A DNA stretch of 43,895 nt. Origin: a virus. A model generated the notes under the pieces. That model searched no databases. It saw nothing but the letters and a program-made list of their open reading frames with translations, and was not told the origin of the DNA. This document shows, piece after piece, positions 2,363-42,960 of the stretch. How positions within the stretch are numbered: position 1 is the stretch's first letter; each line of letters starts with the position of its first letter. Where the stretch lies: IMG/VR virus record IMGVR_UViG_3300020395_000027, positions 1 to 43,895 of that record; one strand, 5' to 3'. The position numbers were made by a program, and so were the translations under genes.

Positions 2363-5300
2363 ATGCCTGCTGTAAAAACCAAGAGAATTTCCACTCTAAT
2401 TGAAACGCAGCTTCCAGCTTTTATTACTGATGAATATGAACTCTTTAGTAAGTTCGTTCAAAAGTATTATGAAGCACAGGAGGTACAGGGTGGTACGCTG
2501 GATATTATCAACAATCTCCAAAAATATGCAGATATAGATTATTATGAACAAAATCTTCTTAGACAGTCTGATATCTTGGACACTAGTATTTCTGCTAGTG
2601 ATGATACAATTGTACTACAAGATGCGACGAGTTTTCCAAAGAAAAACGGATACGTAAAAATTGATGATGAAATTATCTTCTACGGATCTAGAACAGATAC
2701 CCAGTTAAATGAGTGTTCTAGGGGCGTTAGTGGAAATACCTCACTAGGAGACCTATACGAGTCTAGCACCTTCTCTAGCACCACTGCGGCGGCACACAAT
2801 GCAGGACAGAATGTATATAACGTAAGTAATCTATTCTTATATGCATTTGTAAAGAATTTTGAGAACCAGTATCTAGGTTCTTTCCCTGAGAAGTATCTAA
2901 GAGGGGAAGTAGACAAAAGAACTCTTATTAAGAACATTCAAAAGTTCTACAAAGCTAAGGGAACTAAGAGTTCTATTCAATTCATCTTTAATACTGTTAT
3001 TGCTAAGGATAGTGATAACAAACCAGAAGTATACAAACCAAGAGATTTTACTTATAAGTCATCAGAATCTGACTGGATTAATGTTTATGCATTAAAGTGT
3101 AAGGTTGTTAGTGGTGATCCTAAGGATTTAATTGGTTCTAAGATTATTCAGACTGCTACAGCAGAATATGGTTATGCAGATGCTTTTGTAGATAATGTAA
3201 ATGCTGATGGTACATCAGATAATGAAAAGATTTATAATATTGTTCTAGCTTCAGAAACTGTTAATGGTGAATTTGCTATTTCTACCAAAACTAAACTTGC
3301 GAAATCCCTGTCAGGGACTGCGATCTCAGGGGATAGAATTGATGTATCTTCTACTCTTGGATGGGAGACTACTGGATCTGTATTAATTGGTGAAGAGACT
3401 ATTACATTCAGTGAGAAGACTGTAACGCAGTTTATTATTGATGAAAGACAAGCACAAGGAGCTACAGTTCATCCTTCTGGGGCATCTGTTTACAAACCAG
3501 TTACAATTTCTGGAAATGGTGTAACATTATTAACATTTGGTGTTGTTTATAATTTAAAACCACAAGATTCACATCCATATTCTAGTCCTGGTGATGACAT
3601 TCAAGTTTCTAATCCAGGTTTTGAAACTGATGATCCTAAGATAGTTAAAGTTGGTACGAAAGATACCAGATGGGTTTTTAATTCTGGTACTGCACCTCTC
3701 ATTCCGACACTACCATCTATTCAATCATCATTAAGTCAGTTAACTACTGATGTATCTTCTATTTTTGAAGATGACCAATATTATTACATTACAAGTTCTA
3801 GTTATCCATCATATAAAATTCTAGATGGATCTACTGTAAATGAAAATCTTCTTGATCAAAGAATACTTCGTATTATCAGGAAGCAAGCAACAAGAACTAC
3901 AGAAATTTATCAAACTCCTAGGAGAGATATTGGTATCCTTCTAAACGGTGTCCCTGTCTACGGTTTCAGGGATCATGATAGTATTCGTTTTGGTAAATTA
4001 GAAGAAATTAAAATTAATACTCAAGGAAGGGGTTATGAAAAACCACCTTTTGTGTTGATTGATCAAGTACCTAATAAGGCTAGAGCAGTCTTAACTGGTC
4101 AAGTTGTTGAAAGGATTATTGTTGATACTGAAGATATTTTTCCAAGAACTCCAGATATTACTATTACCTCTGGTCGTAATGCATCTGTTCGTGCAGTTGT
4201 AACTGGTGGTAAAGTAACAAGTTTAATACTTGATAATCCTGGTGAATTTTATTCTTCTCCACCAATTGTAAGAATTTCTGATACTGCTGGTAGAGGAAGG
4301 TTTGCTGATTATGAAGCAGTTGTTAATACTGATGGAAATATCACTGGATTTAACAAACGTGGAGAAGGAAATTTCTATAATCAAAATACTGTTAAAGTAG
4401 ATATCATTCCTGTTGGTGAAGATGCATCTGGTATCCCTTTATTGAAAGAATGGAATTTTAATAGATTTAATAAATTAGAAAACAATCTTGATACTGAGTA
4501 TGGTTATATTTTCCAGAATTATAATAATGCATTAGATTATGGTTATGGTCATGTTGCTAACCCTAAAGCTTTACGTGTTGATTTAAACGATAATATTAAC
4601 AGTGCAGGAACTGAACCTTCCACAAAAACTCATTCTCCTATTATTGGATTCGCTTATGATGGTAATCCTATTTACGGTCCATTCGGACATCAGGATCCAT
4701 TAGATTCTACCTCATCTATTGTGAGGATGACTTCTGGATATTCTTTGAATGGAAGTCGTTCTAATGGACCATCGTTAACTCAGTACCCTTTGGGTTCGTT
4801 TAATAACGATTACACATACACTCACAAGAGTGGCACACTGGATCAAAACAATGGAAGATTTTGCATTACCCCAGACTTTCCACAAGGAACTTATGCTTAT
4901 TTCATTACTATTAATAGTAATCAAGTACCGCAATATCCCTACATTATAGGAGAAAATTTCTATTCTTTACCTGTAGATAGTAATTACAATTCTAATATTA
5001 ATCAGGATGATATTCCAAAGAATTCTAAGAAATATTATGTTTCTGGAATGCAAGGAAATGGTGAAGGTCTTATTGCAAAAATTGCAGAGGTTAGTTCTGG
5101 AACAGTTGATGCTATAGATGTTATTAATACATCTGATAATTTCTCTATTAATTCTCAACTTTATTTTGATAATAGAGGAACGGAAGGTTCTGAAGTAGAA
5201 GCTATTATTTCTTCAGTTAAAGGAAAATCAGTTAATTACATAGAATCAAAAGAAAATAAAGTAGTAAAACTTACTACTATTCAAAATGCATATCTATTTG

Positions 5301-8300
5301 CTAATGATACATTAAATCAACCATCCTCAGGTGCATCTGGTTCTATTGTAGGTACAGTTAAGAATGATAATACAATTGTACTAAGAAACGTCAATGGTAT
5401 ATTTGATGAAACAGGAACATTCTCTGCGACTATTAAAACATTTACAATTTTACTAGATCAAAGAAGTTCATATACCAAAGGTGCAACATTAAGTCTTACT
5501 GATGGTGTCAATACACCAATTGCTACTGCTGAGGTATTAGAAGGTACATCCTCTCAAAACACAGTCCAGATCAAGGTTCTTACAGGTACGTGGATTGTAG
5601 ATAATACATATTTCTTACAATCTGATGATTTGTTTAATACATCTGGAACTAGGATTGAAAAACTAACATCATTAAGTGATGGATTAGAACCATTTGATGT
5701 TAATCAAAGTGTAGCATTGGTTGAGACAGCATCAAATCATGGATTGGGAATTGGTGATCAGGTAACAATTGATATTAATCCTAATGATGCAACTAAACTC
5801 AAGACTTATTACGTAAGAAAGAGGTTATATCAGGAAGCAGTTTTAATACCTCCTACTGCAACTACAAATATTAATTTTACAGGAATAGGAAGGTATGAAA
5901 TACTCAATGGTGGTGCTGACTATACAGCTGGTACTTACACTGGTGTGGCTCTTACTAGTGGGTCAGGATCTGGAGCAACTGCTACCTTCACTGTTTCTGA
6001 TGCAGGGATAATTTCTAATATTCAAATTGAGAATAGTGGTTCTGGATATGCAAGAGGTGATTATCTATCTGTTGCCGATGAAGACTTAGTAAGATCTGGT
6101 GCATCTACATCAACAGCAAGATTGACTTTATATGTTGGACATGTTGGTGTTCCTGCTGGTGGTACAAAAGTAACTGTTGATAATTCCTTAGGATTTTCTA
6201 CTGATGATTTAATTCAAATTGGTGAAGAAATCTTAAAAGTTACTGGTATTACTGGAAATGATATTTCTGTAACTAGAGGACAGGAAGGAACTACAGATAT
6301 AGATCACTTTGATGGACAAGAAGTAAAACTATACAAAGCACAATATAATTTTAATAATAATTTCCAAATATTTGCAGGTGCTAATTCTGGACGTATTCAA
6401 TCATATGATCCAGTAACACATAAAATTATTATTTCATATCCATACGGAACTTTAAAGACAACTGCAAATGAAGTTGTTCTAAGCTCTAGTTTCTTTGATA
6501 GTAGTGATCCTAAAAGATTAGTTGCTGTTAAATCTTCAGGAGATCTTACATACAAATTTGAATTCTCAGAAGATAATAGTACATTTGTACCTAATCCTAA
6601 TATTAACGTACAGGAATTTTACAAGTATAAGTTTGATACGTCTCATTCTAGTCTTACTGGAACTTACTTTGATATTAGTCCAAGTAAAAATCTAAATCTA
6701 GTTACTGTAGAGAAGACAGAAGGCACACATCTTCCTGGTAATGCTGGTGCATTTACAGATGTTAAGTTTGGTTTTGGATCTAGATTAGAAACAAATAATT
6801 ATCAAACTAAAGTAGGAACAGATTTTACAAACTTTTATTACTATGATAAGAAGAATGTAGTAAATGCAGAAGATGCTTATCTAAAGATTATTACAGACCC
6901 TCTACAAGGAACTAAGACTATCAATTATGTTACAGAAGACCGTTTTGTTTATGATGTTACTAGTCAGCCTCTTTGGGATGGTTCTGGATCCATTTCTTAC
7001 ACTACTACTGGTCAGTTCGCTATTGGTGAGATTAACAAAGTAGATATTATTAATCTAGGACTTAATTACAAAAAGGTTCCTATTATTCTAGGTGTTGATC
7101 CTACTCAGAGTTACAGAGCTTCAGCAACTGTAACATTTGATACATCTTCTAATATTATAACTGGTGTTGAAATAGTTGAGAAAGGATCTAATTATTCCAA
7201 ACCAAAAGTTATTATTACTGATGGTGATGGTTCAGATGCTTCATTTGATATTGTAGTAAGAAATGGTGAGATATTTTCTATAGTAGTTTCTAGTACTGGT
7301 AAAGGATATACATATGCTCCTACAATTAAAATTATAGAAAGTGATACTCAAGCTTTTGCTTCCAGTTCTACAATTGGAGTTCCTCAAAGTGTTAATATTA
7401 TACAGAATGGTGGTGGATACCATGAAGATAAAACAGTAGCATCTAATTTCTCCTCAAGTTATATTTTAGGTGTTCAATCAAGTGGAGAAATACCAGAGTA
7501 TCAGAAAGGTGAAACAGTAGTTCAAATCATTGATGGTGTAGAAGTTCTTAGAGCAAAAGTAATAGAATATAGAAGGGGTTCTAACCTTATTAAGATAGGA
7601 AATGTTGATGGTACTATTAGAGAAAATGTTTTAATAAGAAGTGTATTAAGAAGTAATGTAGTATCAACAGTAAAATCTATATTTGTTACTACATTTGCAG
7701 AATCTATTACTAGTTTCTATGATAACTTAGGATATTATACTTCTGATAAAGGTCGTCTTGGTGTATCTAATCAAAAAATATTAGATAGTGATTTCTATCA
7801 AGATTATTCTTATGTTGTTAGATCTAAAACACCTATTAATGAATGGCGTGATCTTATTAAATCTACTACACATCCAGCTGGATTTAAACTATTTGGTGAG
7901 GTAGATGTTGAGGCAACTGCTGGAACAGAAATGCCAGCAGAAGAGTTACCAAAATCATCTCATTTTAGTGTTATACAACTTTGGGATCCTGCAAAGAATA
8001 AGATTACTGTAGAGAATACAACATACGGCATAACACAATCTGTACAATCAGTTAAGAGTCAGAGAGTTCGTAAGGGTATTGGTTCTGCTGCAACTAGTGA
8101 ATTCTTATTTAATGAGGTTCGTGCATTTGAATTTACTCTTGCTGCACCTTTTGATGGTTATTATGATACAGATGGAAGATTACAAGGAACTACATCATTC
8201 CAAATTATTAATGATTTAGGAGTTCCATTCTCTCCTGCTTCGGATAAAGGAGTTATTGTAACTCTTGATGGTGTTATTCAAGATCCTGGAGTTGCATATA

Positions 8301-11300
8301 ATATTTCTGGTGATAATATTATTTTCACTGCTCCACCATTAGGACCAGGAACTAAAAATAATTCTTCTTATGAAGGTGTTACTTTTTATGGTAAAATATT
8401 CCAATTCAAGGATGATCAATATAATACCAAACATTTTAAAAAATTAAGAAATATTTTCCAACGTGATGGTATATGGATAGATGCTGCAAATCAAATTGAA
8501 AGAAATATTGAGTTTATTGTTAATGAATCTATTGGATATGGAAAATCTACATATCCAACATTAGATTGGAGTACCAAGCAGGATGATTATGAAGAAAACC
8601 TCAGATTTATTCTAGATGCATATCAGCATGATATTAGATTTGGTGGAAACATTAAAACTATTGATTATACATCTGCTTTCAATACTGAGGATCGGTATCT
8701 TTATATTAAAAATAATAAAACTGAATCTAATTCTATTTTTGCATATGCAACTAGATTAGCAAAGCTAGCAATGCGTAATTGGGATTACACTGATACTGGT
8801 GTAACTTATGCTCAAGGATCAAATACAATTAATCTATCATCTACTGATAATGTTGCTATTGGTATGTTTGTTAGTTCTGGTAGAGCATTCCCATCTGATA
8901 CAAAAATTACATCTATTGATAGTGCTACTCAAGTTACAGTAAGTCGTAATGCAATAGCAAACTCTTCTGGTGGAGGTGGTGTTCCAGTTGGAACAACAGA
9001 TTTATCTGGAACAGCACCAGCAGGAGGTACGACAATCCCAACTAGCACTGGTCGTGTTGTTGATGGTGAAACATATGATGTTCCTCCTGGTTCTACAGTA
9101 TCAGTTGCTACTTCTTTTGGTGGAACTGATCAGGCAACATTCTCTTGGAGTGGACTTAATACTGGTATGTTCTACAAAGCAGGACAACTAATTGAGGGTA
9201 ATAGACAGTATATTATTGACACAACACATGCTTGGATGGTTTCAACATATCCATCTCTTGCAGCAGTTGCAGGAACTGCCGCAGCTAAGTGTAAGAGAGA
9301 TATTGGTCTTTTCTTAGATGCATATGTGTATCATCTTAAACAGGGTGGTAACTTTAAAATTGTAGAAGCAGCACAGTTATACTACACGAAGAATGAATAT
9401 CCTTATGGTGAAACTAGAACTTCTCTAGTTGGAGTTCTTACTGAAGCACTTGCAACATTTAGTTATGCTAAGGATTTAGCAATACAGGCAATGAGAAATC
9501 AATTGCCATTTACAGATCCTAATGCATTAGTTGATTCTGTTTCACCTGTATGTGCAGAGGTAGAAAGCACATTAAACACATATCATAGTATTGTTAATAC
9601 GATTCTAGCAGAAGGTATGGGTCTTGTTGATAAGACAACTCAAAATCCTAATAAGAGTGGTAATTGGACTCCTACATTAACATATTCTAATTACAATATT
9701 ATAGGTGATGCTAACATTCCTTTCCAGGAGTGTAATACTGTTGCTTCTGCTATTAGTTCCTTATATGATAATTTGGATGATATTATTAATTTAAAATCTG
9801 TAACTAGAACATTACCAGATTATATTGATGGAGAAACAAAAGAATTTGAATTATATTGGGATGACAATACTGCTGTAGATAGTGAAAAAGATGAGAATTT
9901 ATTCTTGTCATTAAATGCTGTATTACAGAGACCTAAGTTTACTGAGGATTATCCAGGAGAGGATGCTTACTTTATTGATAGAACTGTAATTCCTAACGTA
10001 ATTAAATTTGATGTAGCTCCTATATGGGATCAAGATCTAGGTGCTAAGACTATTGGTGAACCTACTGCGGTTGAGAAAGTAGTTGGTATTGGTGTTGGTA
10101 ACTATAAGAGACTTACGATTGACTATAATTTAGTTGATGGGGTTAGAAATGGTCCTTTCTTAATTTTAGATGTAGAAGATTACACAGTACAAAGTATTGA
10201 AGCAGAAGATGCTTTATACGTATTCTTAGATGGTGTATTACAAAGAAAAGGATACTCGTATACTGTATCTGGTCCAAATATTTTCTTCAATGTTCCTATT
10301 ACAAAGGAAATGAAGATTGATATGAGATATCTCTATGGAAGAGATGTTGGTCAAGTTCTTAATATTTACGATTTTGCACCAGACACATATTATGCACAAG
10401 GTTCATTCTCTTTTGATTCTACTGTATTAAATGCTTTCTTAAAGTATGATTGGATGGGAGATGCTGCTGGATCTGCAATTCAAGTTTGGCAGCAAAGAGC
10501 AAATGGAACATATAATGTTATTGGTGAAATTAGCAATCCAGTAGTTACTGGAAATAATATAGTGTTTGATCTTAAGGGTCAGAATGCTGCTATTGAAAAT
10601 GGTTTAGATTATACTTTTGTACCAAAAAAATATTATGATAGAACATTTGTAATTGCAGATGCTGATATTTCTAATGTAACTGTATCATATGTACAAGATG
10701 AAATTGGAAGGAAAGTTCTTAAGACTGATGATGGTATTTGGTCAGGAAGTAATTATGGAATAACATATAAGAAACCATTTGTATCTTTATCAAATGGAGA
10801 TAAGATTAGTGTAGAAGGTGAAGAGGGATTCCGTAGTATTAAAAAACTACCAACAGAAGCTACTAGTAAAGATGGTAGATCAGGAGAACAACTAACTGAT
10901 GATATTTTTGGTTCAGTCTCAGTTGAGTCTTATACTGGAATTACGAGAGGAGAGGGTTTATCTGTAGTAGCAACTATTGAAAATGGTAGTATTACCAAAC
11001 TAACTTGGAACCAACGTAGTTATGATCCTATTACACAACCAACTGCATATCAGTATTTTACTCCACCAGTTCTTAAATTTGAACCTTTAAATGGTGAAGG
11101 TGGTGGTGCAAGAGCAAATGTTCTTGTAAGTAAAGGTCAAGTAATTAGTGTTGATTTACTTGATGGTGGTTCTGGATATACTAAAGCTCCAAAAGTTATT
11201 GTAACAAGAAGATTTGATGTTCTCTCAGACAGAGAAATTGGTGTATCACTAATTAATGTTGCTATCAGACCTTACTTAGATGTTGCCCAAAGTAGTTTAA

Positions 11301-12712
11301 TTATATCAACAATTGATGTTCTTGGTAACAGATTAGTTGATGCATTCTCTTTCTCTTCTGTTGATCTACAGAGTCCAGCAGATACCTCCCGTAAGATAAC
11401 TGCAGAGATTCAAACTGATAAGAAAAATATTGTAGATGGTACATCTGGATTTGATATGCCAGCTGGTCCTGTTCAACCTGGTCCTGCTCAAGTTGTATTC
11501 ATTGAACCACCACCTGCTGTTGATATTAATGGTGAAGGTGGGGTATTAAAACTTCAAGGTTCTGCAAGTGTTGTTTCTGCAGAGGTTCAAGATATTGTTT
11601 CTCTCAACTCTATTTCTACTGTAAGTAAAGCAGTTACAAGTAATATACAGAAAGTCATTCCTAATGATGCTCTATCTAATATCAACTTCTTTGAAACTGC
11701 TGCATATCTTGATATTGACTTTAATATTGGTGATACTATTGCTTATATCCCAGACACCATTAAGTTTAAACCAATGGGTCTACTTCTTATTGGTGATGAA
11801 GTTGTAAGATATCATAGAAAACTTTCTGATAGATTTACTAATATTCTTAGAGGTCTTAGAGGAACTACTGAGCAAGATTGGACTGCTGGTACTTTCTTGA
11901 GACAAATTCCAGAACTTGTATCTGTTGCTCCTGTGGGTGTTGTTCAGGTACAGTCTGAAAGTGATGTTAAGATTGTCAGTGCAAGTGCAGCTGCAGGAGG
12001 ATTTGAGAGAGTTACACAAAGACAAGTTGGTTCTGCTGATGAATTAAAAATCACCAAAGCAGCAACTGAACTTGTTTTAATTCCACCACCAGGCGGTGTT
12101 GTTGATGGATATGCAGAGGAACTATTCTTAACAGATCCAATTCCTGTTAGAGCTGGTAACACAACTGGTGGACATGATGGTGAAGTTGATCTTATTGAAA
12201 TCAATGATGGTTATCATGTTGGTAAGAGAAATGCAACTGAAGTTCTTATCGTTAACTCTGTTTTTGGAAGAACTGCAGAATACATTGGACAATATACTAA
12301 AACAAATGTTGGTCATACCATTGGTCACTTTGATGGTATTTTTGATGATGGTGTATGTTCTGTATCTGGTTTATCACTTGCGGAACTTGATTTATACTTT
12401 GGATCTCTTACTATAAAAGACTTTAGTGAAAGGAGAGATTCTAGTTATACACTAGCTGGTGATAAATTTGTAATGATGCCTCCATCAATTCAAAATCCAG
12501 TTGCGATTAGTTCTTCCGCAGGAACAATTCCCGCAACTATTAATGTTCAGGATACTACTTACTTCCCTGATGAGGGATATGTATTTACTAGTGGTGGAAC
12601 TGTTGTTCAGTATACTGGAAAAACAGCAACATCATTCACTGGATGTACTTTAACTAGAGGTACAAACTCAATTTCTAACGGTCATGAGTTAGTTCCGTTT
12701 GCAATTGACTAA
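2363..12712 (+). CDS. Giant modular baseplate/virion protein in the gp7 position
   Basis: This 3449-residue protein lies between gp6 and gp8, where T4 has gp7 (1032 residues). A baseplate wedge or peripheral role is inferred from position. The N-terminal 210 residues look like a conserved cap, with LPAFITDEYELFSKFVQKYYE and a helical DKRTLIKNIQKFYKAKGTKSS stretch. After this the chain is a string of beta modules: 'FP..G.I.IG.E.I' units at about residues 73-126, 318-369, 1266-1323, 3123-3179 and 3386-3449; GSGY-type units at about 548-680, 1177-1240, 1556-1690 and 2905-2951; and a YHYH-type domain at about 757-865. Two all-helical units (2041-2140, 2280-2385) stand out, followed by 'LDGVLQ..Y.V.G..I.F' units near 2510-2720. 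No signal peptide, transmembrane segment or enzyme motif is evident. The frame is open throughout, so this is one intact gene. Homology to T4 gp7 itself is not visible. Confidence 0.85.
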   Translation: MPAVKTKRISTLIETQLPAFITDEYELFSKFVQKYYEAQEVQGGTLDIINNLQKYADIDYYEQNLLRQSDILDTSISASDDTIVLQDATSFPKKNGYVKIDDEIIFYGSRTDTQLNECSRGVSGNTSLGDLYESSTFSSTTAAAHNAGQNVYNVSNLFLYAFVKNFENQYLGSFPEKYLRGEVDKRTLIKNIQKFYKAKGTKSSIQFIFNTVIAKDSDNKPEVYKPRDFTYKSSESDWINVYALKCKVVSGDPKDLIGSKIIQTATAEYGYADAFVDNVNADGTSDNEKIYNIVLASETVNGEFAISTKTKLAKSLSGTAISGDRIDVSSTLGWETTGSVLIGEETITFSEKTVTQFIIDERQAQGATVHPSGASVYKPVTISGNGVTLLTFGVVYNLKPQDSHPYSSPGDDIQVSNPGFETDDPKIVKVGTKDTRWVFNSGTAPLIPTLPSIQSSLSQLTTDVSSIFEDDQYYYITSSSYPSYKILDGSTVNENLLDQRILRIIRKQATRTTEIYQTPRRDIGILLNGVPVYGFRDHDSIRFGKLEEIKINTQGRGYEKPPFVLIDQVPNKARAVLTGQVVERIIVDTEDIFPRTPDITITSGRNASVRAVVTGGKVTSLILDNPGEFYSSPPIVRISDTAGRGRFADYEAVVNTDGNITGFNKRGEGNFYNQNTVKVDIIPVGEDASGIPLLKEWNFNRFNKLENNLDTEYGYIFQNYNNALDYGYGHVANPKALRVDLNDNINSAGTEPSTKTHSPIIGFAYDGNPIYGPFGHQDPLDSTSSIVRMTSGYSLNGSRSNGPSLTQYPLGSFNNDYTYTHKSGTLDQNNGRFCITPDFPQGTYAYFITINSNQVPQYPYIIGENFYSLPVDSNYNSNINQDDIPKNSKKYYVSGMQGNGEGLIAKIAEVSSGTVDAIDVINTSDNFSINSQLYFDNRGTEGSEVEAIISSVKGKSVNYIESKENKVVKLTTIQNAYLFANDTLNQPSSGASGSIVGTVKNDNTIVLRNVNGIFDETGTFSATIKTFTILLDQRSSYTKGATLSLTDGVNTPIATAEVLEGTSSQNTVQIKVLTGTWIVDNTYFLQSDDLFNTSGTRIEKLTSLSDGLEPFDVNQSVALVETASNHGLGIGDQVTIDINPNDATKLKTYYVRKRLYQEAVLIPPTATTNINFTGIGRYEILNGGADYTAGTYTGVALTSGSGSGATATFTVSDAGIISNIQIENSGSGYARGDYLSVADEDLVRSGASTSTARLTLYVGHVGVPAGGTKVTVDNSLGFSTDDLIQIGEEILKVTGITGNDISVTRGQEGTTDIDHFDGQEVKLYKAQYNFNNNFQIFAGANSGRIQSYDPVTHKIIISYPYGTLKTTANEVVLSSSFFDSSDPKRLVAVKSSGDLTYKFEFSEDNSTFVPNPNINVQEFYKYKFDTSHSSLTGTYFDISPSKNLNLVTVEKTEGTHLPGNAGAFTDVKFGFGSRLETNNYQTKVGTDFTNFYYYDKKNVVNAEDAYLKIITDPLQGTKTINYVTEDRFVYDVTSQPLWDGSGSISYTTTGQFAIGEINKVDIINLGLNYKKVPIILGVDPTQSYRASATVTFDTSSNIITGVEIVEKGSNYSKPKVIITDGDGSDASFDIVVRNGEIFSIVVSSTGKGYTYAPTIKIIESDTQAFASSSTIGVPQSVNIIQNGGGYHEDKTVASNFSSSYILGVQSSGEIPEYQKGETVVQIIDGVEVLRAKVIEYRRGSNLIKIGNVDGTIRENVLIRSVLRSNVVSTVKSIFVTTFAESITSFYDNLGYYTSDKGRLGVSNQKILDSDFYQDYSYVVRSKTPINEWRDLIKSTTHPAGFKLFGEVDVEATAGTEMPAEELPKSSHFSVIQLWDPAKNKITVENTTYGITQSVQSVKSQRVRKGIGSAATSEFLFNEVRAFEFTLAAPFDGYYDTDGRLQGTTSFQIINDLGVPFSPASDKGVIVTLDGVIQDPGVAYNISGDNIIFTAPPLGPGTKNNSSYEGVTFYGKIFQFKDDQYNTKHFKKLRNIFQRDGIWIDAANQIERNIEFIVNESIGYGKSTYPTLDWSTKQDDYEENLRFILDAYQHDIRFGGNIKTIDYTSAFNTEDRYLYIKNNKTESNSIFAYATRLAKLAMRNWDYTDTGVTYAQGSNTINLSSTDNVAIGMFVSSGRAFPSDTKITSIDSATQVTVSRNAIANSSGGGGVPVGTTDLSGTAPAGGTTIPTSTGRVVDGETYDVPPGSTVSVATSFGGTDQATFSWSGLNTGMFYKAGQLIEGNRQYIIDTTHAWMVSTYPSLAAVAGTAAAKCKRDIGLFLDAYVYHLKQGGNFKIVEAAQLYYTKNEYPYGETRTSLVGVLTEALATFSYAKDLAIQAMRNQLPFTDPNALVDSVSPVCAEVESTLNTYHSIVNTILAEGMGLVDKTTQNPNKSGNWTPTLTYSNYNIIGDANIPFQECNTVASAISSLYDNLDDIINLKSVTRTLPDYIDGETKEFELYWDDNTAVDSEKDENLFLSLNAVLQRPKFTEDYPGEDAYFIDRTVIPNVIKFDVAPIWDQDLGAKTIGEPTAVEKVVGIGVGNYKRLTIDYNLVDGVRNGPFLILDVEDYTVQSIEAEDALYVFLDGVLQRKGYSYTVSGPNIFFNVPITKEMKIDMRYLYGRDVGQVLNIYDFAPDTYYAQGSFSFDSTVLNAFLKYDWMGDAAGSAIQVWQQRANGTYNVIGEISNPVVTGNNIVFDLKGQNAAIENGLDYTFVPKKYYDRTFVIADADISNVTVSYVQDEIGRKVLKTDDGIWSGSNYGITYKKPFVSLSNGDKISVEGEEGFRSIKKLPTEATSKDGRSGEQLTDDIFGSVSVESYTGITRGEGLSVVATIENGSITKLTWNQRSYDPITQPTAYQYFTPPVLKFEPLNGEGGGARANVLVSKGQVISVDLLDGGSGYTKAPKVIVTRRFDVLSDREIGVSLINVAIRPYLDVAQSSLIISTIDVLGNRLVDAFSFSSVDLQSPADTSRKITAEIQTDKKNIVDGTSGFDMPAGPVQPGPAQVVFIEPPPAVDINGEGGVLKLQGSASVVSAEVQDIVSLNSISTVSKAVTSNIQKVIPNDALSNINFFETAAYLDIDFNIGDTIAYIPDTIKFKPMGLLLIGDEVVRYHRKLSDRFTNILRGLRGTTEQDWTAGTFLRQIPELVSVAPVGVVQVQSESDVKIVSASAAAGGFERVTQRQVGSADELKITKAATELVLIPPPGGVVDGYAEELFLTDPIPVRAGNTTGGHDGEVDLIEINDGYHVGKRNATEVLIVNSVFGRTAEYIGQYTKTNVGHTIGHFDGIFDDGVCSVSGLSLAELDLYFGSLTIKDFSERRDSSYTLAGDKFVMMPPSIQNPVAISSSAGTIPATINVQDTTYFPDEGYVFTSGGTVVQYTGKTATSFTGCTLTRGTNSISNGHELVPFAID
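4631..4955 (+). other. YHYH-type domain inside the 3449-residue protein
   Basis: Residues about 757-865 read HSPIIGFAYDGNPIYGPFG, then D.NNGRF...PQGTYAYFIT and finally YPYIIG. This is the pattern of the YHYH domain, found in secreted bacterial proteins and in marine phage structural proteins, whose function is unknown. The conserved AYDGNPIYGP core is intact. It may be a surface or glycan-facing module; that role is inference. Confidence 0.7.
8483..9520 (+). repeat. Two copies of an all-helical KCxRDI...AMRNW module
   Basis: Two helical stretches in an otherwise beta-rich protein resemble each other. The first (8483-8785, residues about 2041-2140) has YPTLDW, ILDAYQHDIRFGGN and LAKLAMRNWDY. 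The second (9197-9520, about 2280-2385) has YPSLAA, KCKRDIGLFLDAY, LKQGGNF and LAIQAMRNQ. The pattern is YP.L, a [KR]..I..ILDA.. helix, .GGN and an AMRN helix. The same pattern occurs twice in the 3721-residue protein downstream. The two copies here are separated by about 140 residues of beta and glycine-rich sequence, including a SIDSAT unit. Confidence 0.7.
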
Positions 12713-12774: not shown

Positions 12775-14589
12775 ATGGCTGCTATTATTTCTGATAAGTT
12801 TCGTATATTTAACGCGAAACAATTCTTAGAATCACTTACTGAGGGTCCCACGGACACCAGTAATGAACGATCTAGGATGTACTTCTTTGTGGGTAGACCG
12901 CAACCATGGAGAGCATACTTAGAGATTTATTCAAAAGGTTCCACATCATTTACTGTAGGAGATGAGGTTTACGTAGGAACATATGGTTCCACTACCTTCC
13001 GTGCTACAATCGCTGCTGTTTATGATAGTGCCCTACTTCTTACCGACGTTTTTGGAAGTGCAGGTGTAAACTCCGCTCCTGCTCTAGCAACCGATCTTAA
13101 GTGCCGTACTGGTGGAGCAGGTGGTTCCGATACAGGTGCTGTTGCTAAGTCAGGTGTTTATCGTTATGCAACTGAGGACGTTCCTCCTCTACCTCTTGAT
13201 AACCAGAGTGAAAAAATTGCTCTTTACGACGAACTAATTGCTGCTAAGCGTATTACTGATGCTTTTGCAAGAACTGTTGTTCGTCGTTACAACTGGGATT
13301 TAGTAGCTAACCCTAAGTTTGACATGTGGAAACCTGATTACTCTGCTACACCTGGTGGCGGTGGTCAAATTGGTAAAACAACCGCAACAGGTCAAACTAG
13401 TATTGCTGATGCTAAGTTCTATGTAATGAACTCTCAGTATGAAATATTCAAGTGTCTTTACAATGGTGAAGATCCTTCTAACACAACTGGTCAAAACGCA
13501 ACTGAAGAACCAACTACTGCAGGTGGTAACTATGCTTCTGCTACAGGTCTTTATACAGAAAGCACTGGTGCTGGATACATTTGGAAGTATATGTATACCA
13601 TCCCAACTGATGATGTTCTGAAGTTCCTTTCTTCTGACTTCATGCCAATCGTTCTTCCCGCAAACGCTTCTAGAACTGCTGTTGTAGCACAGGCTGTAGA
13701 TGGTGCTGCTGACGTTGTTCTAGTTGAAGATGCTGGTTCAGGACTTCCTTCTTCACAAACTCTTTATACAAGTATTAAGGGTGATGGAGCTGGTGGTAAA
13801 GTTAAGTTTGTAACAAATGGTTCTGGTACAATCACATCTGCTGAGATTGAAGCTCGTGGATCAGGTTACACTTATGCTAATGTTTTAACATCTAATGGCA
13901 ATCTTTTCTCTGATGCTGGTTTAACAACTGCTGTAACAACTGGTGCTTCTGCTGTTGGTGCTTTTGAAGTTATTCTTCCTCCTGTTGGTGGACATGGTTC
14001 TGATCATGAAACAGAACTAAATGGTAAGCGTGTTATGACTAACATTCGTCTTACATATTCAGAAGGTTCTGGAGACTTCCCTGTAGATAACGACTTCCGT
14101 CGTATTGGTATTGTTTCTGATCCATTTAATTATGGAACAACAACTTTCTCTACTGCTGATACACTTTCTGGTTTAAAATCTCTTAAGATTACAGGTGCTA
14201 CTGCTGATTATTCTGTTGATGAAACAATCACTCAGACTGTAACTGGTGGTACTGCATATGGTACAGTTGTATCATGGACATTAGACAGTGGTTCTACTAC
14301 TGCTGGAGTTCTTAAGTACATTCAAACAAATGATGCTCATACAGATCAAGGTGTAGTAAGAGCTTTTGAAAGTAATGGTTCTAATGCTGTTTCTGGAGGA
14401 ATTTCTACTGCTTCTGGTAATGTAGATACAACTTATTCTTCCGCATTACTTGGAGTTACTTTCTCAAGTGGTTTAGCAACACCTGAAATTGAAAATAATT
14501 CTGGTGATGTCATTTATGTTGAGAATAGAAGACTAATCACTCGTGCTCCTGACCAGATTGAAGATATCAAGTTAGTTATTGAATTCTAG
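12775..14589 (+). CDS. gp8: Baseplate wedge subunit gp8, enlarged
   Basis: Blocks spread over this 604-residue protein match T4 gp8 (334 residues), the dimeric wedge protein that bridges gp6, gp7 and gp10. They are ISDKFR near the N-terminus, FFVGRPQPW at residues 37-45 (T4: FGRSEPW), the helix ending in VVRRYNW, GYIWKYMYTIP near 266 (T4: GYVWEYLFEIP), FRRIGIVSDPF near 441, and the C-terminal IYVENRR...DQIEDIKLVIEF. The extra length lies between these blocks: about 90 residues after position 50, a GSGY-type beta unit around 340-400, and a Gly/Thr/Ser-rich region around 455-575. The core is thus decorated with modules like those of its giant neighbours. It is preceded by tandem late-promoter-like motifs and only a weak ribosome binding site. 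Confidence 0.9.
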   Translation: MAAIISDKFRIFNAKQFLESLTEGPTDTSNERSRMYFFVGRPQPWRAYLEIYSKGSTSFTVGDEVYVGTYGSTTFRATIAAVYDSALLLTDVFGSAGVNSAPALATDLKCRTGGAGGSDTGAVAKSGVYRYATEDVPPLPLDNQSEKIALYDELIAAKRITDAFARTVVRRYNWDLVANPKFDMWKPDYSATPGGGGQIGKTTATGQTSIADAKFYVMNSQYEIFKCLYNGEDPSNTTGQNATEEPTTAGGNYASATGLYTESTGAGYIWKYMYTIPTDDVLKFLSSDFMPIVLPANASRTAVVAQAVDGAADVVLVEDAGSGLPSSQTLYTSIKGDGAGGKVKFVTNGSGTITSAEIEARGSGYTYANVLTSNGNLFSDAGLTTAVTTGASAVGAFEVILPPVGGHGSDHETELNGKRVMTNIRLTYSEGSGDFPVDNDFRRIGIVSDPFNYGTTTFSTADTLSGLKSLKITGATADYSVDETITQTVTGGTAYGTVVSWTLDSGSTTAGVLKYIQTNDAHTDQGVVRAFESNGSNAVSGGISTASGNVDTTYSSALLGVTFSSGLATPEIENNSGDVIYVENRRLITRAPDQIEDIKLVIEF

Positions 14590-22751: not shown

Positions 22752-22958
22752 ATGGACTTTATTAAAGTTAAAGGGCATGATGATCTCGTAAGAGATAAAA
22801 ATACTGGTGCCATAATTAATCTGGACGATTCTGCAATAGTTGCGAGACGTAAGTCAAAACAGCTTGGTTCCGCGTTGGAAGACATAAATACCTTGAAGAA
22901 TGAAGTATCTGAAATCAAATCTTTACTTAGAGAGTTAATTAAAAATGCCAGCAATTAA
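22752..22958 (+). CDS. Small conserved coiled-coil protein of T4-like marine phages
   Basis: This is a 68-residue protein. The N-terminus FIKVKGHDDLVRDKNTGAII resembles a short protein I recall from many marine T4-like phages at comparable positions. The C-terminal half (about residues 38-66) is a heptad-like helix, LEDINTLKNEVSEIKSLLREL, that could form a coiled coil. It starts nine bases after the stop of the DUF4815 protein and its end overlaps the next start by 14 bases, so it is translated within the structural operon. Its function is unknown. A chaperone or minor virion role for the neighbouring fibre proteins is only a guess. Confidence 0.75.
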   Translation: MDFIKVKGHDDLVRDKNTGAIINLDDSAIVARRKSKQLGSALEDINTLKNEVSEIKSLLRELIKNASN

Positions 22959-25900
22959 TGTAGCAAAAACTGATACCTTTGAATCTCAAAGGCAAAAGAT
23001 TAACCAAATTGGAGATCAGATTTTTAGCATCTCTCAAGGTGGTAGTGATCTTGCCACGGGTAATTTAAAAATAGGAGATGGAACAGTTACTGTTCCTTCT
23101 CTAGCATTTACATCAGATGCCTCGGTTGGTATATACAAATCAGGTGCTGGAAGTTTAGGATTTGTTTCATCCAACAAAAAAATTCTAGATTTAGAAACAG
23201 CAGATGTTGTCTTTTATAAAGACGTAAAAGTAAGACAAAGAATTTTATATGCTGGTGGTGTTTCTATACTAAACAGTGGATCTAGTTATGATGCAGGAAC
23301 ATATGAAGGTATTGGTCTTACTGGTGGAACTGGAGATGATGCGACTGCAGATTTTGTAGTTACAGAATTTGAAGGTTCAATTACACAAACTGGTGCTGGT
23401 TATAATCCAGGAGTTTATAGTTCTGTACCTTTTGGTGGAGGAACTGGATCTGGAGCTTTAATTACATTTACTGTGCCTGGTATTGTTGGTGCTTTAGGTG
23501 CTGGTTCTGGGTATGTACCAGGAACTTATACTGGTGTACCAATTACTGGAGGAAGTGGATCTAATGCTGTTGCTGATATTATAGTAACTGGTACAACAGG
23601 ATTTAATGGAACAATAGTTGGTGGTTCTGGATATACTGATGGAACATATCAAGGTGTATCTACATACAACCAACCAATTCAAACATTTGTTGTAACTGTA
23701 ACTGGTTCTGGTCCTTATCAATATGTAATTGATGGTAATAGTCAACCATCACTAACTTTAGATACTGGAAATACTTACAAATTTGATGTATCTGATGCAT
23801 CTAACAATGGACATCCATTTAGATTTGAAACTCAGTTTGGAGGAGACTTAAATCCAGGTGATGCTCCTGGTGTTACTGGAGTCAGAGTAGGAACCCCTGG
23901 TACTGCAGGTGCTTTTTATGAGGTTGTAGTTAAAGGATCGTCTACATCCACATCTGTACTTTATGACTGTGAAACTCATAACAATATGGGTGGATCAGTT
24001 ACTATCCAAGCTGGAACAACAGTTCATGAGGGTACAGGTGGAACAGCAGATGTAACCGTATCTGGAGGAGCAGTTACAGCAGTTGTGTTTACAACGGCAG
24101 ATGATTATGCAACTGGAGATATTATAGAATTTAACTCTGCTGATGTAGGAGGAACAGGATCTGGATCTACATTTACTTTAACAACTCCATCTTATAACGG
24201 AGTTGTTAGTTCTGTAACTTTTACAAGCATTGGTTCGGGATATGTTAAAACTGATGTTTTATCAGCAAATGATTCTGATCTAGGTGGAGGTGGTGGAGCT
24301 GGATTTACTTATACAGTAAATAGTGATCCTGGTATATTAACAGAAATTACTACGTTTGATAGTAAAGGATCTGGATATATTGCAAATGATGTCTTAACAT
24401 TATCAGCTGGTGTTACAGGAGTTGCAGCAACTCTTCCTGGTCAAAAAAATAACGTATCTACAACTTTAAGCACAGGTAGTGCTCAAATTACTGTTGCTAG
24501 TACAGCAGGTATTATTGCAGGAATGAATGTCTTTAATGGACAATCAGATACTGGAATTTTACAACCAAACACAACAGTTCAATCTATTGATAGTGCGACT
24601 GAATTAACATTATCCGCTATACCAGGAACTGCTGGAGCTGCTAGTTTATCATTCTCTTCACCAAATCTATTTGATATTACTGTAGCAAGTGCAACAGGTA
24701 TTAATGTTGGAGATATTGTTACCAAAACTGCTGGTGCTGGTGTTCTTGCTGCTAATACTACTGTAAGCACAATTACTGGAAATGTAATTACGTTATCAAA
24801 TACACCAACAACTGCAGGAGCTGCTACATTATCGTTCAGTCCTTCATATGGTTCACCTACAACTACATTACAATATACCATTTCTAAAATTGGTTCTGTA
24901 GAAAGTATTAGTATTAATAATGCTGGTAATGGTTATGTTGCTGGAGATTCTCTAGGAGTAAGTCCATTTGATTTAACTCAACCTATTTCATATACAGTAA
25001 CTAGAAGAGATGTTGTAGAATTTACATTAACAGCAACTGTACCTTCAAGCACTTTTTCTGTGGGAGATACTTTAGTTGAGAGTGGAGTAGCACAAGGAGC
25101 AAGTACAGAAATTATTGAGATTAGATCTCTTGGAGGAAATGTAACTTCATTACTTTGCACAGCTACTGGTCTTACTGCTGGATCTATAGTTGAAGAAGAT
25201 AGTAATCCTGGTCCTACTTACACTATTAATACATTTACTGATTTAGAAACAAAAATATTCATTGATACAGGTTCTGGAGCTACTATAACTCCAGATATAA
25301 CCTTATATGTTGGAAATACATATTCATTTGATTTATCAGATTCTTCTAACGATTCTCAGGAATTTGCTTTTTCTAGTTTTGCAGGAGGAAAGTGGGGAAC
25401 TAGTAGTATAGGACCTTTAGCAGCTACACTAGATGTAGCATCTGCAAATGTTACTTTAGCTAGCACTACTGGAATTGTAGCAGGAATGATTGTAACTGCT
25501 ACTGGTCAAGGTGGTGGATCGTTAGTTACTGGAACAAAAGTATCTGTGGTTGTAGATGCAACTACTATTACATTAGATACTGCACCATCTGGATCAGGAG
25601 CAGTAGATTTATCATTTGAAGGAACTGAGTTTACTGATGGTGTATCAACAGATGGTTCAAATATTAATATCAAGATAACTGATACCACTCCAAATCTTTA
25701 TTATTATGATAAATTAACTGCTGATCAAGGTGGTGAAGTTGGAAACGAAGCTTTATTAACAATTAATCCTACTAACCCAAAAGTATTTGGTTCTGGATTT
25801 GTATTATCTGTTTTAAATACACAACAATCTGATGTTATTTCTTCAGATATTTCAAGTGGTGAATTTTCTGCTGCAAGCATTGTTTCTTCTTCTACAATTA

Positions 25901-27771
25901 ATGGTGTTGATGCAACATTAACTGGTTCTGTAACTACACCACAGTTAAATGGAACTAATGTTGTTGCATCATCTATATCTTCTCAAACAACATTAACTAT
26001 TTCTGGAACTGATGTAACTGTTAATGCTCCATTTAATGTAGGTGCTACTGTTAGTGTTGATTCTGGTACTGGAAATGTTACTACATCTGGTTATGTAAAA
26101 ACAACTGGATTTTTAAATGTAAATGATAAAATTCTTCTTGAAGAAAATGAAATTCAAACTACTACTGGAAATGATTTAGTATTAAAACCAGTAGCAGGAA
26201 GAATTACTAAAGTAGATGGAACTCAAGCTTTGGTACTACCTGTTGGTAATACCGTAGAAAGACCACAATCACCAATTGCACAAAATGGTGCTATCAGATT
26301 CAACACTGACAATAATCAATATGAAGGATATAACTCTACTACAACCTCATGGTCTTCTCTTGGTGGTGTTAGAGACATTGATGGTAACACATATATTCTA
26401 GCAGAACTTACAGCAGGAGCAAATGACAATACATTATGGTTCTATAATGATGCTGTAAATACATTAAAATTAACGCCACAGTTTTTAGACTTTAGAGCTG
26501 TTAAGAAAATTTCATCTGGTAAATTAGGTCTTCCAGCATTTACAGAATGGGCAGCTAACACCGCAGTAACTACTGGACAATATCTAAAGTATAAAAATAA
26601 TCTCTATGAAGTAACAGGTGATGGAACAACTGCTTCTTCTGGTAATGAACCAACACATACTACTGGAGTTCAAAATAATGGTACTGCACAATTAACTTGG
26701 TCTGCTATTGCTGTTGATTCATTAACGTTTGAAGAAATTACAGAACTAAGAGTAGGTCCTAATAAAGATTGCCCGTTGGTTATTGGACAAGAACTAAAAC
26801 TTGACGATAACACGATTTCCACACAGGTACAGGATTTGGTATTGAGACCAAATGCAGGAAAACAAACTATTGTTGATTCTGTAACTCACTTTAGAATTCC
26901 TGCTGGTACTAATAACGAGAAAAGTATTGCAGCTGCTGGTGCTGGATCTATTAGATTCAATACAGATATTCAACAGTTTGAAGGATATAGTGGAACTAAC
27001 TGGTCTTCACTTGGTGGTGTTAGAGACGTTGATGGCAATACTTATATTATTCCAGAAAGTGCTCCAGCTGCAAATGAAAATATTCTATATTTTTATAATG
27101 ATAATCTCAATACATTACAATTAACAGATACTGCTTTAGATTTTACTGGGATTGACAGTATCACAACTAGTGGAGGTAATACACTAGCAGTAAATACAGA
27201 AATTGTTACCTTTAATACTGTAGATACAACGATTGATAATAGTGATGCTACAAGTACGTTTATTAGTAGTACAAAACAGTATCTTGATTTGGGATTATCT
27301 TCTGGATTGAATACAGATCCTATTATAAGATTAGATGATCAAGGTGATGTTTATCTCAACATAACTTTTGGATCTGGATCTTATAATGGAGTGAAGATTT
27401 TTGATGGTGATCTAAAAGAATTTGAATTAGCAGACTATAAGATTAGTTCTTCCACATTTACTTTAGATAAAGGTGGATTAGAATCTTCTGCTGTTGTTCT
27501 TTATCCAAGTGGAACATCTAAAGGATGTGAGGTAACTGTTGTTTCTAAATCTAGTTCTGGAAAAAGATCTATGACGAAATACTCTGTTATAGATAATGGC
27601 ACTGATATTTTTCATAATGAGTATTCTTCTTTGAATACTTCAAATGATCAATATACAGCAACATTTGATTTTACTGCTTCCACAGAACCTAGAATTACTT
27701 TAACTTTAAGTAATGATCATACAGTTGCCGATATTATTAACTTCACCGTACTAGTTCAGGAAATTAAGTAA
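22945..27771 (+). CDS. Modular tail fibre-like virion protein with cupredoxin-like domains
   Basis: This is a 1608-residue Gly/Thr/Ser-rich protein. Residues 1-100 form a conserved-looking head (FESQRQKINQIGDQIF, then VGIYKSGAGSLGF). Residues about 104-240 hold four GSGY..GTY.GV..TGG units. A cupredoxin-like domain (about 245-357) interrupts the fourth unit and is followed by more GSGY-type units. Two SIDSAT-type beta units lie near 505-635 and a second, ligand-less cupredoxin-like domain at about 766-941. Two fibre units carrying RFNTD..Q.EGY and WSSLGGVRD.DGNTYI (about 1067-1190 and 1290-1400) flank a CBM5/12-like W...PTHTTG unit (1201-1259). The C-terminus is a beta domain with IDNGTDIFHNEY. 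The ATG overlaps the previous gene by 14 bases. A peripheral fibre or decoration role is inferred from module content and position. Confidence 0.85.
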   Translation: MPAINVAKTDTFESQRQKINQIGDQIFSISQGGSDLATGNLKIGDGTVTVPSLAFTSDASVGIYKSGAGSLGFVSSNKKILDLETADVVFYKDVKVRQRILYAGGVSILNSGSSYDAGTYEGIGLTGGTGDDATADFVVTEFEGSITQTGAGYNPGVYSSVPFGGGTGSGALITFTVPGIVGALGAGSGYVPGTYTGVPITGGSGSNAVADIIVTGTTGFNGTIVGGSGYTDGTYQGVSTYNQPIQTFVVTVTGSGPYQYVIDGNSQPSLTLDTGNTYKFDVSDASNNGHPFRFETQFGGDLNPGDAPGVTGVRVGTPGTAGAFYEVVVKGSSTSTSVLYDCETHNNMGGSVTIQAGTTVHEGTGGTADVTVSGGAVTAVVFTTADDYATGDIIEFNSADVGGTGSGSTFTLTTPSYNGVVSSVTFTSIGSGYVKTDVLSANDSDLGGGGGAGFTYTVNSDPGILTEITTFDSKGSGYIANDVLTLSAGVTGVAATLPGQKNNVSTTLSTGSAQITVASTAGIIAGMNVFNGQSDTGILQPNTTVQSIDSATELTLSAIPGTAGAASLSFSSPNLFDITVASATGINVGDIVTKTAGAGVLAANTTVSTITGNVITLSNTPTTAGAATLSFSPSYGSPTTTLQYTISKIGSVESISINNAGNGYVAGDSLGVSPFDLTQPISYTVTRRDVVEFTLTATVPSSTFSVGDTLVESGVAQGASTEIIEIRSLGGNVTSLLCTATGLTAGSIVEEDSNPGPTYTINTFTDLETKIFIDTGSGATITPDITLYVGNTYSFDLSDSSNDSQEFAFSSFAGGKWGTSSIGPLAATLDVASANVTLASTTGIVAGMIVTATGQGGGSLVTGTKVSVVVDATTITLDTAPSGSGAVDLSFEGTEFTDGVSTDGSNINIKITDTTPNLYYYDKLTADQGGEVGNEALLTINPTNPKVFGSGFVLSVLNTQQSDVISSDISSGEFSAASIVSSSTINGVDATLTGSVTTPQLNGTNVVASSISSQTTLTISGTDVTVNAPFNVGATVSVDSGTGNVTTSGYVKTTGFLNVNDKILLEENEIQTTTGNDLVLKPVAGRITKVDGTQALVLPVGNTVERPQSPIAQNGAIRFNTDNNQYEGYNSTTTSWSSLGGVRDIDGNTYILAELTAGANDNTLWFYNDAVNTLKLTPQFLDFRAVKKISSGKLGLPAFTEWAANTAVTTGQYLKYKNNLYEVTGDGTTASSGNEPTHTTGVQNNGTAQLTWSAIAVDSLTFEEITELRVGPNKDCPLVIGQELKLDDNTISTQVQDLVLRPNAGKQTIVDSVTHFRIPAGTNNEKSIAAAGAGSIRFNTDIQQFEGYSGTNWSSLGGVRDVDGNTYIIPESAPAANENILYFYNDNLNTLQLTDTALDFTGIDSITTSGGNTLAVNTEIVTFNTVDTTIDNSDATSTFISSTKQYLDLGLSSGLNTDPIIRLDDQGDVYLNITFGSGSYNGVKIFDGDLKEFELADYKISSSTFTLDKGGLESSAVVLYPSGTSKGCEVTVVSKSSSGKRSMTKYSVIDNGTDIFHNEYSSLNTSNDQYTATFDFTASTEPRITLTLSNDHTVADIINFTVLVQEIK
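23254..23665 (+). repeat. Tandem GSGY-type beta repeats
   Basis: Four consecutive units of roughly 33-36 residues share the pattern SGY..GTY.GV..TGG.G..A.A...V. They begin near SGSSYDAGTYEG, GAGYNPGVYSS, GSGYVPGTYTG and GSGYTDGTYQG. The last unit is broken by the cupredoxin-like domain. Related units occur in the proteins encoded at 2363, 12775, 14643 and 28317. Confidence 0.8.
23677..24015 (+). other. Cupredoxin-like domain with a complete type 1 copper ligand set
   Basis: Residues about 245-357 have the strand pattern of a small cupredoxin: LDTGNTYKFDVSDASNNGHPF, a variable middle, then SVLYDCETHNNMGGSVTI. The candidate ligands are His290, Cys342, His345 and Met348. The Cys-x2-His-x2-Met spacing equals that of amicyanin (His53, Cys92, His95, Met98), and the His lies in the expected upstream loop. 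Copper binding is inference from this motif, and the fold has not been tested. Confidence 0.65.
25240..25770 (+). other. Degenerate second cupredoxin-like domain with inserted beta unit
   Basis: Residues about 766-941 repeat the framework of the first domain: LYVGNTYSFDLSDSSNDSQEF, and later NLYYYDKLTADQGGEVGNEA. The His, Cys, His and Met positions are replaced by Ser, Tyr and other residues, so no type 1 copper site can form. A SIDSAT-related beta unit (about 825-892, LASTTGIVAGM...) is inserted between the two halves. Confidence 0.5.
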
Positions 27772-41755: not shown

Positions 41756-42352
41756 ATGATTATTGAATTGTTTCCATCTACATTATTTTTAGTAAAAGTA
41801 AAAAATCATAAAAAAATTAAAGAGGCATGTTTAGATTATGTTGTCCCAGAGTATGAAAAAAACCCATCAACGTTTGTTGATGCATGGGATGCTGATGTTT
41901 GGACAACCTTCAATCAAGAAAATAATTTTGACTGGAAAAATATAGTTTCTCTCTATATTAATGAATTAAAAGATTTTTCTATACAAATGGGAATTTTTGG
42001 AAATCCCATGGTTAGAGAAGCTTGGTTAAATGCTTATAAAGTAAATCAACATCAGGAGATACATGAACATCTTCCTGGTCACTTTTCGTGTATTCATTAT
42101 GTTTCATATGACAAAGAAGAACACTCTCCAACTATATTTGTCAATCCTTTTAGGCAAGTAGCTTTATCAAATTCACCTAATTTTGTTGGTGGTCCAGATG
42201 GAACACCTGCAACTTGGGTTGGTCAATCATTTGTAAAAGTAGAAGAAGGAGATTTACTAATTTTTCCATCTTTCTTGGAACATAAAGTTCCTAGACAAAA
42301 GTCTGATAAACTCAGAGTAACCCTCTCATTCAACCTCAACTTCGTTAGTTAA
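41756..42352 (+). CDS. 2-oxoglutarate/Fe(II) oxygenase-like protein (TIGR02466-like)
   Basis: This is a 198-residue protein. Its features fit the putative 2OG-Fe(II) oxygenases common in marine T4-like phages (TIGR02466-type). Metal-site residues are probably His103-Glu-His105 in HQEIHEHLPGHFSCIHYV, which corresponds to H.H....SGVYY in the family, and His176 in IFPSFLEHKVPR. Arg187 in LRVTLSFNLNF would bind the 2OG carboxylate. The double-stranded beta-helix strands GDLLIFPSF and LRVTLSFN are clear. The substrate is unknown; amino acid or protein side-chain hydroxylation is typical of the wider superfamily. It is the first of three adjacent oxygenase-like genes. Confidence 0.8.
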   Translation: MIIELFPSTLFLVKVKNHKKIKEACLDYVVPEYEKNPSTFVDAWDADVWTTFNQENNFDWKNIVSLYINELKDFSIQMGIFGNPMVREAWLNAYKVNQHQEIHEHLPGHFSCIHYVSYDKEEHSPTIFVNPFRQVALSNSPNFVGGPDGTPATWVGQSFVKVEEGDLLIFPSFLEHKVPRQKSDKLRVTLSFNLNFVS

Positions 42353-42354
42353 TT

Positions 42355-42960
42355 ATGGATATTAAGTTAGCAGTAAACCCTGCAATTTTTTCAGTATCAA
42401 CTGAGTTACCACCATTGATTTGTGATGCAATTCGTGACTGGGAATCTCTAGGTGAAACTGATAAAATCATTGAATACGCACATGCAAAAGTAAATGACAA
42501 TGATCCTGATGGAAGATCATCAATGGTAAAATGGTTACATGAAAGTAACTGGTTACCATCTGTTTTACTAGCATATGTCGGAAACATTAACCGAAGATAT
42601 TTTGGTTATGAACTAGTTGGATATGATAACGAGGTTGTACAATTTACCAAGTATGGTGTTGGAGATCATTACGATTGGCATATGGATGAAGATAGAAATC
42701 CATTTGAGTTGATGCAAAACAACTCAGGAGAGTTTGTAAGAAAGCTTTCTTATACATTTCAACTATCAGATCCTAATGATTATGAGGGTGGTGTTTTGGA
42801 ATTTCAGAATCCAATGAACACTAATGAAATTCACGTTATTGAGAATAAGCAAGGTCTTATCACTGTTTTTGATAGTAGGGTTCCCCATAGAGTTACAAAA
42901 GTAACATCAGGAACTAGGTATTCTCTTGTTGGATGGGTCAAAGGAGGGAGATTTAGTTGA
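42355..42960 (+). CDS. 2-oxoglutarate/Fe(II) oxygenase (prolyl-hydroxylase-like)
   Basis: This is a 201-residue protein with a complete 2OG-Fe(II) facial triad: His109-x-Asp111 in DHYDWHMDED, His178 in DSRVPHRVTKV, and the 2OG-binding Arg188 in GTRYSLVGW. The strands RKLSYTFQLSD, GGVLEF and GLITVFDS complete a double-stranded beta-helix of the P4H/PKHD type, as in PiuC-like proteins, although the protein is shorter. It is soluble and cytoplasmic. It likely hydroxylates a peptide or small molecule during infection; the substrate cannot be read from the sequence. It starts two bases after the previous stop, and its own stop overlaps the next ATG (TGATG), so the genes are translationally coupled. 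Confidence 0.88.
   Translation: MDIKLAVNPAIFSVSTELPPLICDAIRDWESLGETDKIIEYAHAKVNDNDPDGRSSMVKWLHESNWLPSVLLAYVGNINRRYFGYELVGYDNEVVQFTKYGVGDHYDWHMDEDRNPFELMQNNSGEFVRKLSYTFQLSDPNDYEGGVLEFQNPMNTNEIHVIENKQGLITVFDSRVPHRVTKVTSGTRYSLVGWVKGGRFS

Follow-up and report, generated by a model that had tools for sequence, protein, structure and literature searches.

Whether the tail of a marine phage can carry a blue-copper-type metal site is the question raised by a 113-amino-acid stretch (23677-24015) of a 1608-residue ORF, in which a preliminary description had picked out the four residues of a type 1 copper site within a cupredoxin-like framework. The window, meaning the whole stretch of DNA analysed, is a 43,895-base virus record to which no larger genome corresponds, and is recognisable from its genes as the tail module of a marine T4-like phage, with the same gene order as gp080-gp085 of Synechococcus phage ACG-2014i and the 1608-residue ORF in the place of gp083. 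This ORF matches the 'virion structural protein' family phrog_6005, best over residues 713-1608, and it is by annotation, of phrog_6005 and of the orthologue records, that its product is placed in the virion. Proteomics of S-SM1 has been reported (PMC3037559), in the main text of which the cluster names T4-GC 350 and 1069 were not found. The features of the window discussed below are as follows.

172-564, 564-2357 and 12775-14589: ORFs of baseplate wedge proteins
2363-12712: ORF of a 3449-residue protein with a YHYH domain, baseplate region
6548..6844, + strand: degenerate cupredoxin-like copy without ligands, residues 1396-1494 of the 3449-residue protein (profile E 3.1e-9 to 6e-13)
22945..27771, + strand: parent ORF, 1608 residues, ATG start; tail/virion structural protein (phrog_6005; T4-GC_350 type)
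23665..24021, + strand: copy 1, predicted cupredoxin domain with intact ligand set, residues 241-359 (profile E 1.5e-40; AlphaFold2 pLDDT 85.7; cupredoxin matches)
23812..23814, + strand: His290, candidate first ligand (invariant in alignments of 27 and 76 homologues)
23968..23970, + strand: Cys342, candidate ligand at the end of the next-to-last strand (alignments and model)
23977..23979, + strand: His345, candidate ligand in the last loop (alignments and model)
23986..23988, + strand: Met348, candidate axial-type ligand in the last loop (alignments and model)
25213..25737, + strand: copy 2, second cupredoxin copy with ligands lost, residues 757-931 (profile E 1e-14 and 2.4e-5)

Predicted fold and candidate ligands of copy 1

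The extent of the stretch and the numbering of its four residues agree with the ORF translation, as does the C-x2-H-x2-M spacing, which is that of the amicyanin loop; the repeats said to enclose the domain are likewise present, with GSGY-type units at residues 112, 150, 185, 227, 430 and 475. In the ACG-2014i orthologue, from which copy 1 is missing, a GSGY repeat unit continues unbroken across the position of the domain; copy 1 is thus a discrete module whose empty site in ACG-2014i is clean. The order of type 1 ligands (two His, one Cys and one axial Met or Gln) is present in copy 1, and since the whole 1608-residue ORF holds only four Cys and seven His, of which one Cys and two His cluster at the site, the set is more than would be expected by chance. 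With a single Cys in the domain, Cys342 was not considered to form a disulphide.

Structure prediction and comparison, which the preliminary description had proposed as its check, returned a cupredoxin fold and not a different one. AlphaFold2 modelling with 27 homologues gave a pLDDT of 76 and a pTM of 0.73, rising with 76 homologues to 85.7 and 0.82 (residues 241-359); the model is a nine-strand beta-sandwich whose best matches among solved structures are cupredoxins. Foldseek searches of the PDB placed rusticyanin at the top for both models (E 1.4e-4 for the 27-homologue model; E 2.8e-3 and TM 0.53 for the 76-homologue model), and the top match from VIA-align 2 was to 2dv6, a three-domain copper nitrite reductase, in its N-terminal domain (Z 9.5, rmsd 2.8 A, 102 residues). 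A Z of 9.5 is, by the note that accompanies VIA-align 2, somewhat above the level common for models without a clear match, a modest margin, so that the consistency of the match list counts beside the top score: the best 50 matches are of cupredoxin fold throughout, comprising nitrite reductase, rusticyanin, small laccases and the A domains of factor VIII. In the model the first His lies just before a strand, the Cys ends the next-to-last strand, and the second His and the Met occupy the loop before the last, predicted places along the chain that are those of type 1 ligands. Copy 1 thus very probably has a cupredoxin fold, as modelled, and there is good reason to expect a real metal site within it. 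The model also matched three BFVD entries (A0A481YVH3, A0A481Z6J5 and A0A481Z7Q7; E 1e-6 to 2e-5), small proteins described as 'beta-sandwich' and assigned by annotation to Marseillevirus and Pithovirus metagenome genomes, from which it appears that cupredoxin-like proteins may exist in giant viruses.

Ties to known cupredoxins in the sequence itself are weak when taken one by one, and in accord with the predicted fold. The window domain scores no match to the Pfam family Copper-bind (PF00127), and neither a Pfam search with the window protein alone nor a phmmer search of the PDB gave anything useful. With a family profile the best PDB matches were pseudoazurin (E 0.05) and copper nitrite reductase (E 0.11), both aligned on the Cys-x2-His-xn-Met columns; with the deeper alignment as profile, pseudoazurin was still at the top (E 0.17). 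Among NCBIfam models, plastocyanin (best E 0.004) and amicyanin (best E 0.006) were each matched by two family members, the amicyanin cut-off (TIGR02657) being reached neither by these two (E 0.006 or worse) nor by the window domain, which gave no match. Profile-profile comparison with phage plastocyanins gave weak scores only. One distant member, from ACG-2014j, narrowly passes the Copper-bind cut-off (21.3 against 21.2 bits); it is the C-terminal domain of the subtilase-like gp186 (L218; NC_026926.1 164875-166923), annotated as hypothetical.

Spread of the domain and the fate of its ligands

Relatives of the domain are numerous. A tblastn search with the window domain matched 42 phage records, and one with a more typical member matched 353 of 50,697 records, named for Synechococcus, Prochlorococcus, Pelagibacter or Methylophilales, or as cyanophage, marine or unassigned; at least 476 stretches of IMG/VR encode relatives, and profile searches of 23 whole phage genomes, picked since each had a match, found one to five copies apiece. 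The proteins concerned are annotated as tail fibres, baseplate parts, virion structural proteins or hypothetical proteins, and the domain is, as these searches indicate, a widespread marine-phage module. A scan of genome contigs with a single sequence pattern returned four loci, three of which (L134, L136 and L137) are probably phage contigs in metagenome bins, given the phage-type tail, lysis or virion proteins around the match. The fourth (L135, 2394-10295), in a SAR86 single-cell genome, is the only match of this pattern-limited scan outside phage-like contigs, and encodes a 2634-residue RTX/cadherin protein, identifiable from its domains as a surface module, which includes a copy of the domain whose loop reads CDVHSGM. 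The domain also occurs alone, in the 112-residue stand-alone protein gp080 of cyanophage PSS2 (L142, 3992-4330), encoded behind the tape measure genes, where His, Cys and His are lost.

Conservation across homologues, the second comparison that had been proposed, bore out the ligand assignment in that all four residues are invariant in the alignments of 27 and 76 homologues; part of the aligned loci had been found with a pattern containing C-x2-H-x2-M, and the conservation of Cys, His and Met in both alignments is therefore biased. A census of copies was accordingly drawn from profile rather than motif searches, giving 57 non-redundant copies from 23 isolates and the window, with the full set scored as His plus Cys-x2-His-x(2-4)-Met/Gln and the C-terminal ligands of split copies scored by motif. 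The full set is present in 38 copies, both the first His and the Cys-His-Met loop are missing in 14, the first His stands alone in five, and the Cys-His-Met loop without the first His occurs in none (0/57); the joint keeping or loss of the four residues has a Fisher p of 1.5e-9 (57 copies, kinship ignored). Several framework residues remain in the ligand-free copies, in which the Pro beside the ligand His falls from 82% to 0%; part of the framework is lost with it, as for the Tyr of profile column 25 (84% to 10%), so that the contrast between ligands and framework is imperfect. Loop length varies while the ligands are kept (C-x2-H-x3-M and C-x2-H-x4-M), and in a few copies Met gives way to Gln. 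Examples of the latter are locus L029, residues 1405-1531 (CHYHTGQ), and locus L255, residue 397 (CSVHPNQ), as in stellacyanin-type sites. The persistence of ligand-free copies indicates that the fold is useful without metal.

The window protein holds one copy of each kind, since copy 2, split by an insert of about 70 residues (roughly 823-893), has lost its ligands; the full set is kept in copy 2 of an orthologue (L042). The states of the two copies were compared across 54 orthologues less than 90% identical, fetched by C-terminal patterns and not by the ligand motif. Only copy 1 is intact in 30 of these and only copy 2 in 14 (copy 1 being broken or missing altogether), four have both intact and six neither; exactly one intact site is hence found in 44/54 and at least one in 48/54, counts in which copy 2 of L296 was set to intact by hand (the motif is visible, the automatic parse wrong), the divergent copy 1 of L297 was scored intact and that of L243, with C-x6-H-x2-M, was scored broken and may be intact. 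The one-site pattern has a Fisher p of 2e-5, uncorrected for the tree. Along a C-terminal-region tree, 13 changes of state are counted for copy 1 and 12 for copy 2, and independent pairs (mean of 9) differ in opposite directions in 5.9 and in the same direction in 0.3, with a median p of 0.06; a tree of the central region gave a median p of 0.25. The intact copy also swaps between close relatives, copy 1 being intact and copy 2 broken in the window and the reverse holding in L226. These sequence comparisons suggest that selection keeps one metal site per protein, and after allowing for the tree the pattern is only suggestive. An account in which two versions of the gene are swapped whole, as single haplotypes, was not favoured, both traits changing about ten times on the central-region tree, a count made uncertain by recombination in that region.

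Candidate function and competing explanations

The explanation given somewhat better than even standing here is that an accessory cupredoxin of the tail would bind copper at a type 1-like site and so stiffen a part of the virion that contacts surfaces. A cupredoxin domain would have been inserted as an accessory module into the repeat region of a tail- or baseplate-associated protein; it would fold metal-free in the host cytoplasm, copper being taken up after the virion comes into seawater or up against the host envelope. With the metal in place the Cys-His-Met loop would be locked, stiffening the module at its contact with the host surface or with an adjacent part of the tail. The ligand set makes copper the rather likely natural metal. 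Annotation and gene order place the carrier in the tail, where a metal site would be exposed to seawater or lie against the host surface or an adjacent tail component; the RTX/cadherin carrier of SAR86, a surface context, counts for the proposal. Against it stand the little access to free copper that folding in the cytoplasm would allow, the persistence of ligand-free copies and the 6/54 orthologues without an intact site. We infer the identity of the metal, the time of its loading and a role in stability or adhesion instead of electron transfer. The broader claim that marine phage virions are copper proteins, whose blue-copper-type tail sites load copper and need it for attachment or tail function, is put forward tentatively and may well not hold.

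The same ligand set would serve a redox-active blue copper site exchanging electrons, during attachment, with proteins of the host surface or envelope, and the electron carrier plastocyanin is itself encoded by several of these phages; the domain is, however, fixed in tail proteins of phages with unrelated hosts, and the intact site may be that of copy 1 or that of copy 2, a latitude that fits poorly with any one docking partner. This tolerance of position and the unrelated hosts are why stiffening is favoured over one redox docking partner, and electron transfer at attachment is considered improbable. Bound copper might instead be recognised in itself by a host surface protein as a 'Trojan horse', by analogy with the idea advanced for iron in the HxH motifs of phage fibres (PMC11705849), and the phages found here are all marine, where metals are scarce. 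Such direct recognition is nevertheless unlikely, since the metal of a type 1 site is, as is well established for the fold, buried. To our knowledge, no host receptor for a copper-bearing tail of this kind is known, and there is little probability that the copper acts as bait.

Other explanations dispense with copper or with metal altogether. Zinc can occupy cupredoxin sites. Iron pins are known in T4 gp37 (PMC11705849), and a real site holding zinc or iron as a structural pin would fit both observations, but Cys and two His with a variable axial residue (Met or Gln) is the copper pattern, and a site for another metal is judged unlikely. Nor does it seem probable that the domain is a relic of the fold, an Ig-like spacer whose ligands are kept by history or packing and not for metal binding: Ig-like modules are common on phage fibres and ligand-free copies persist with the framework intact, whereas the four residues are kept or lost jointly with the first some 50 positions from the others, the set is invariant in divergent intact copies, and most orthologues have exactly one intact site.

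Relation to known metal-binding proteins

Type 1 cupredoxins (plastocyanin, amicyanin, pseudoazurin, rusticyanin; PF00127) share with the phage domain the predicted fold, the His...Cys-x2-His-xn-Met order and the loop before the last strand; the phage domain differs in being embedded in large tail proteins without an export signal of its own, and most phage members are too divergent to be scored by the Pfam model. The N-terminal domain of the nitrite reductase 2dv6 is likewise a cupredoxin added to a larger protein, but serves an enzyme as electron donor, is no part of a virion and has 16% identity to the phage domain. Cyanophage plastocyanin (PetE), a member of the blue copper family in the same phage genomes (PMC3037559), is a separate soluble protein exported for host photosynthesis, with C-x2-H-x4-M. 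Tail-fibre residues also hold metal in the HxH motifs of T4 gp37 and Alteromonas phage R22Y (PMC11705849), where the metal is iron, the ligands are His pairs between the strands of a trimer, and there is no cupredoxin fold. The open-access papers searched contained no description of a phage virion with a domain of cupredoxin or plastocyanin type; the novelty thus lies in a known fold, here predicted, and ligand set in a new place, the tail proteins of phages.

Cupredoxins are known as electron carriers and as parts of oxidases; here the predicted fold, with a complete ligand set, appears again and again in the tail proteins of hundreds of marine phages, where it seems to have escaped annotation. 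Should copper be held at these sites, virions would be among the carriers of copper in the ocean, and recognition of the host could hinge on a trace metal. Copper is both needed by and poisonous to marine cyanobacteria; were virions copper proteins, its supply could bear on the infection of the most abundant bacteria of the ocean. The presence of dead and live copies in one protein provides a built-in control for the role of the metal.

A second possible metal domain of the window's tail module is the YHYH domain of the 3449-residue protein (4541-4930, residues 727-856; E 9.7e-30), a predicted metal-dependent hydrolase. Such domains resemble the cupredoxin copies in being metal-binding domains fused to baseplate or tail proteins of phages, where they are predicted zinc-dependent hydrolases (PMC7824862); they differ in belonging to another Pfam family, with His and Asp residues, and in being predicted to act as catalysts. 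A weak Phycobilisome-family match lies further along this ORF (9179-9346, residues 2273-2328; E 2.2e-4) and, at 21.6 bits against a cut-off of 22.2, may be due to chance. Behind the tail genes lie two adjoining 2OG-Fe(II) oxygenases (41756-42352 and 42355-42960).
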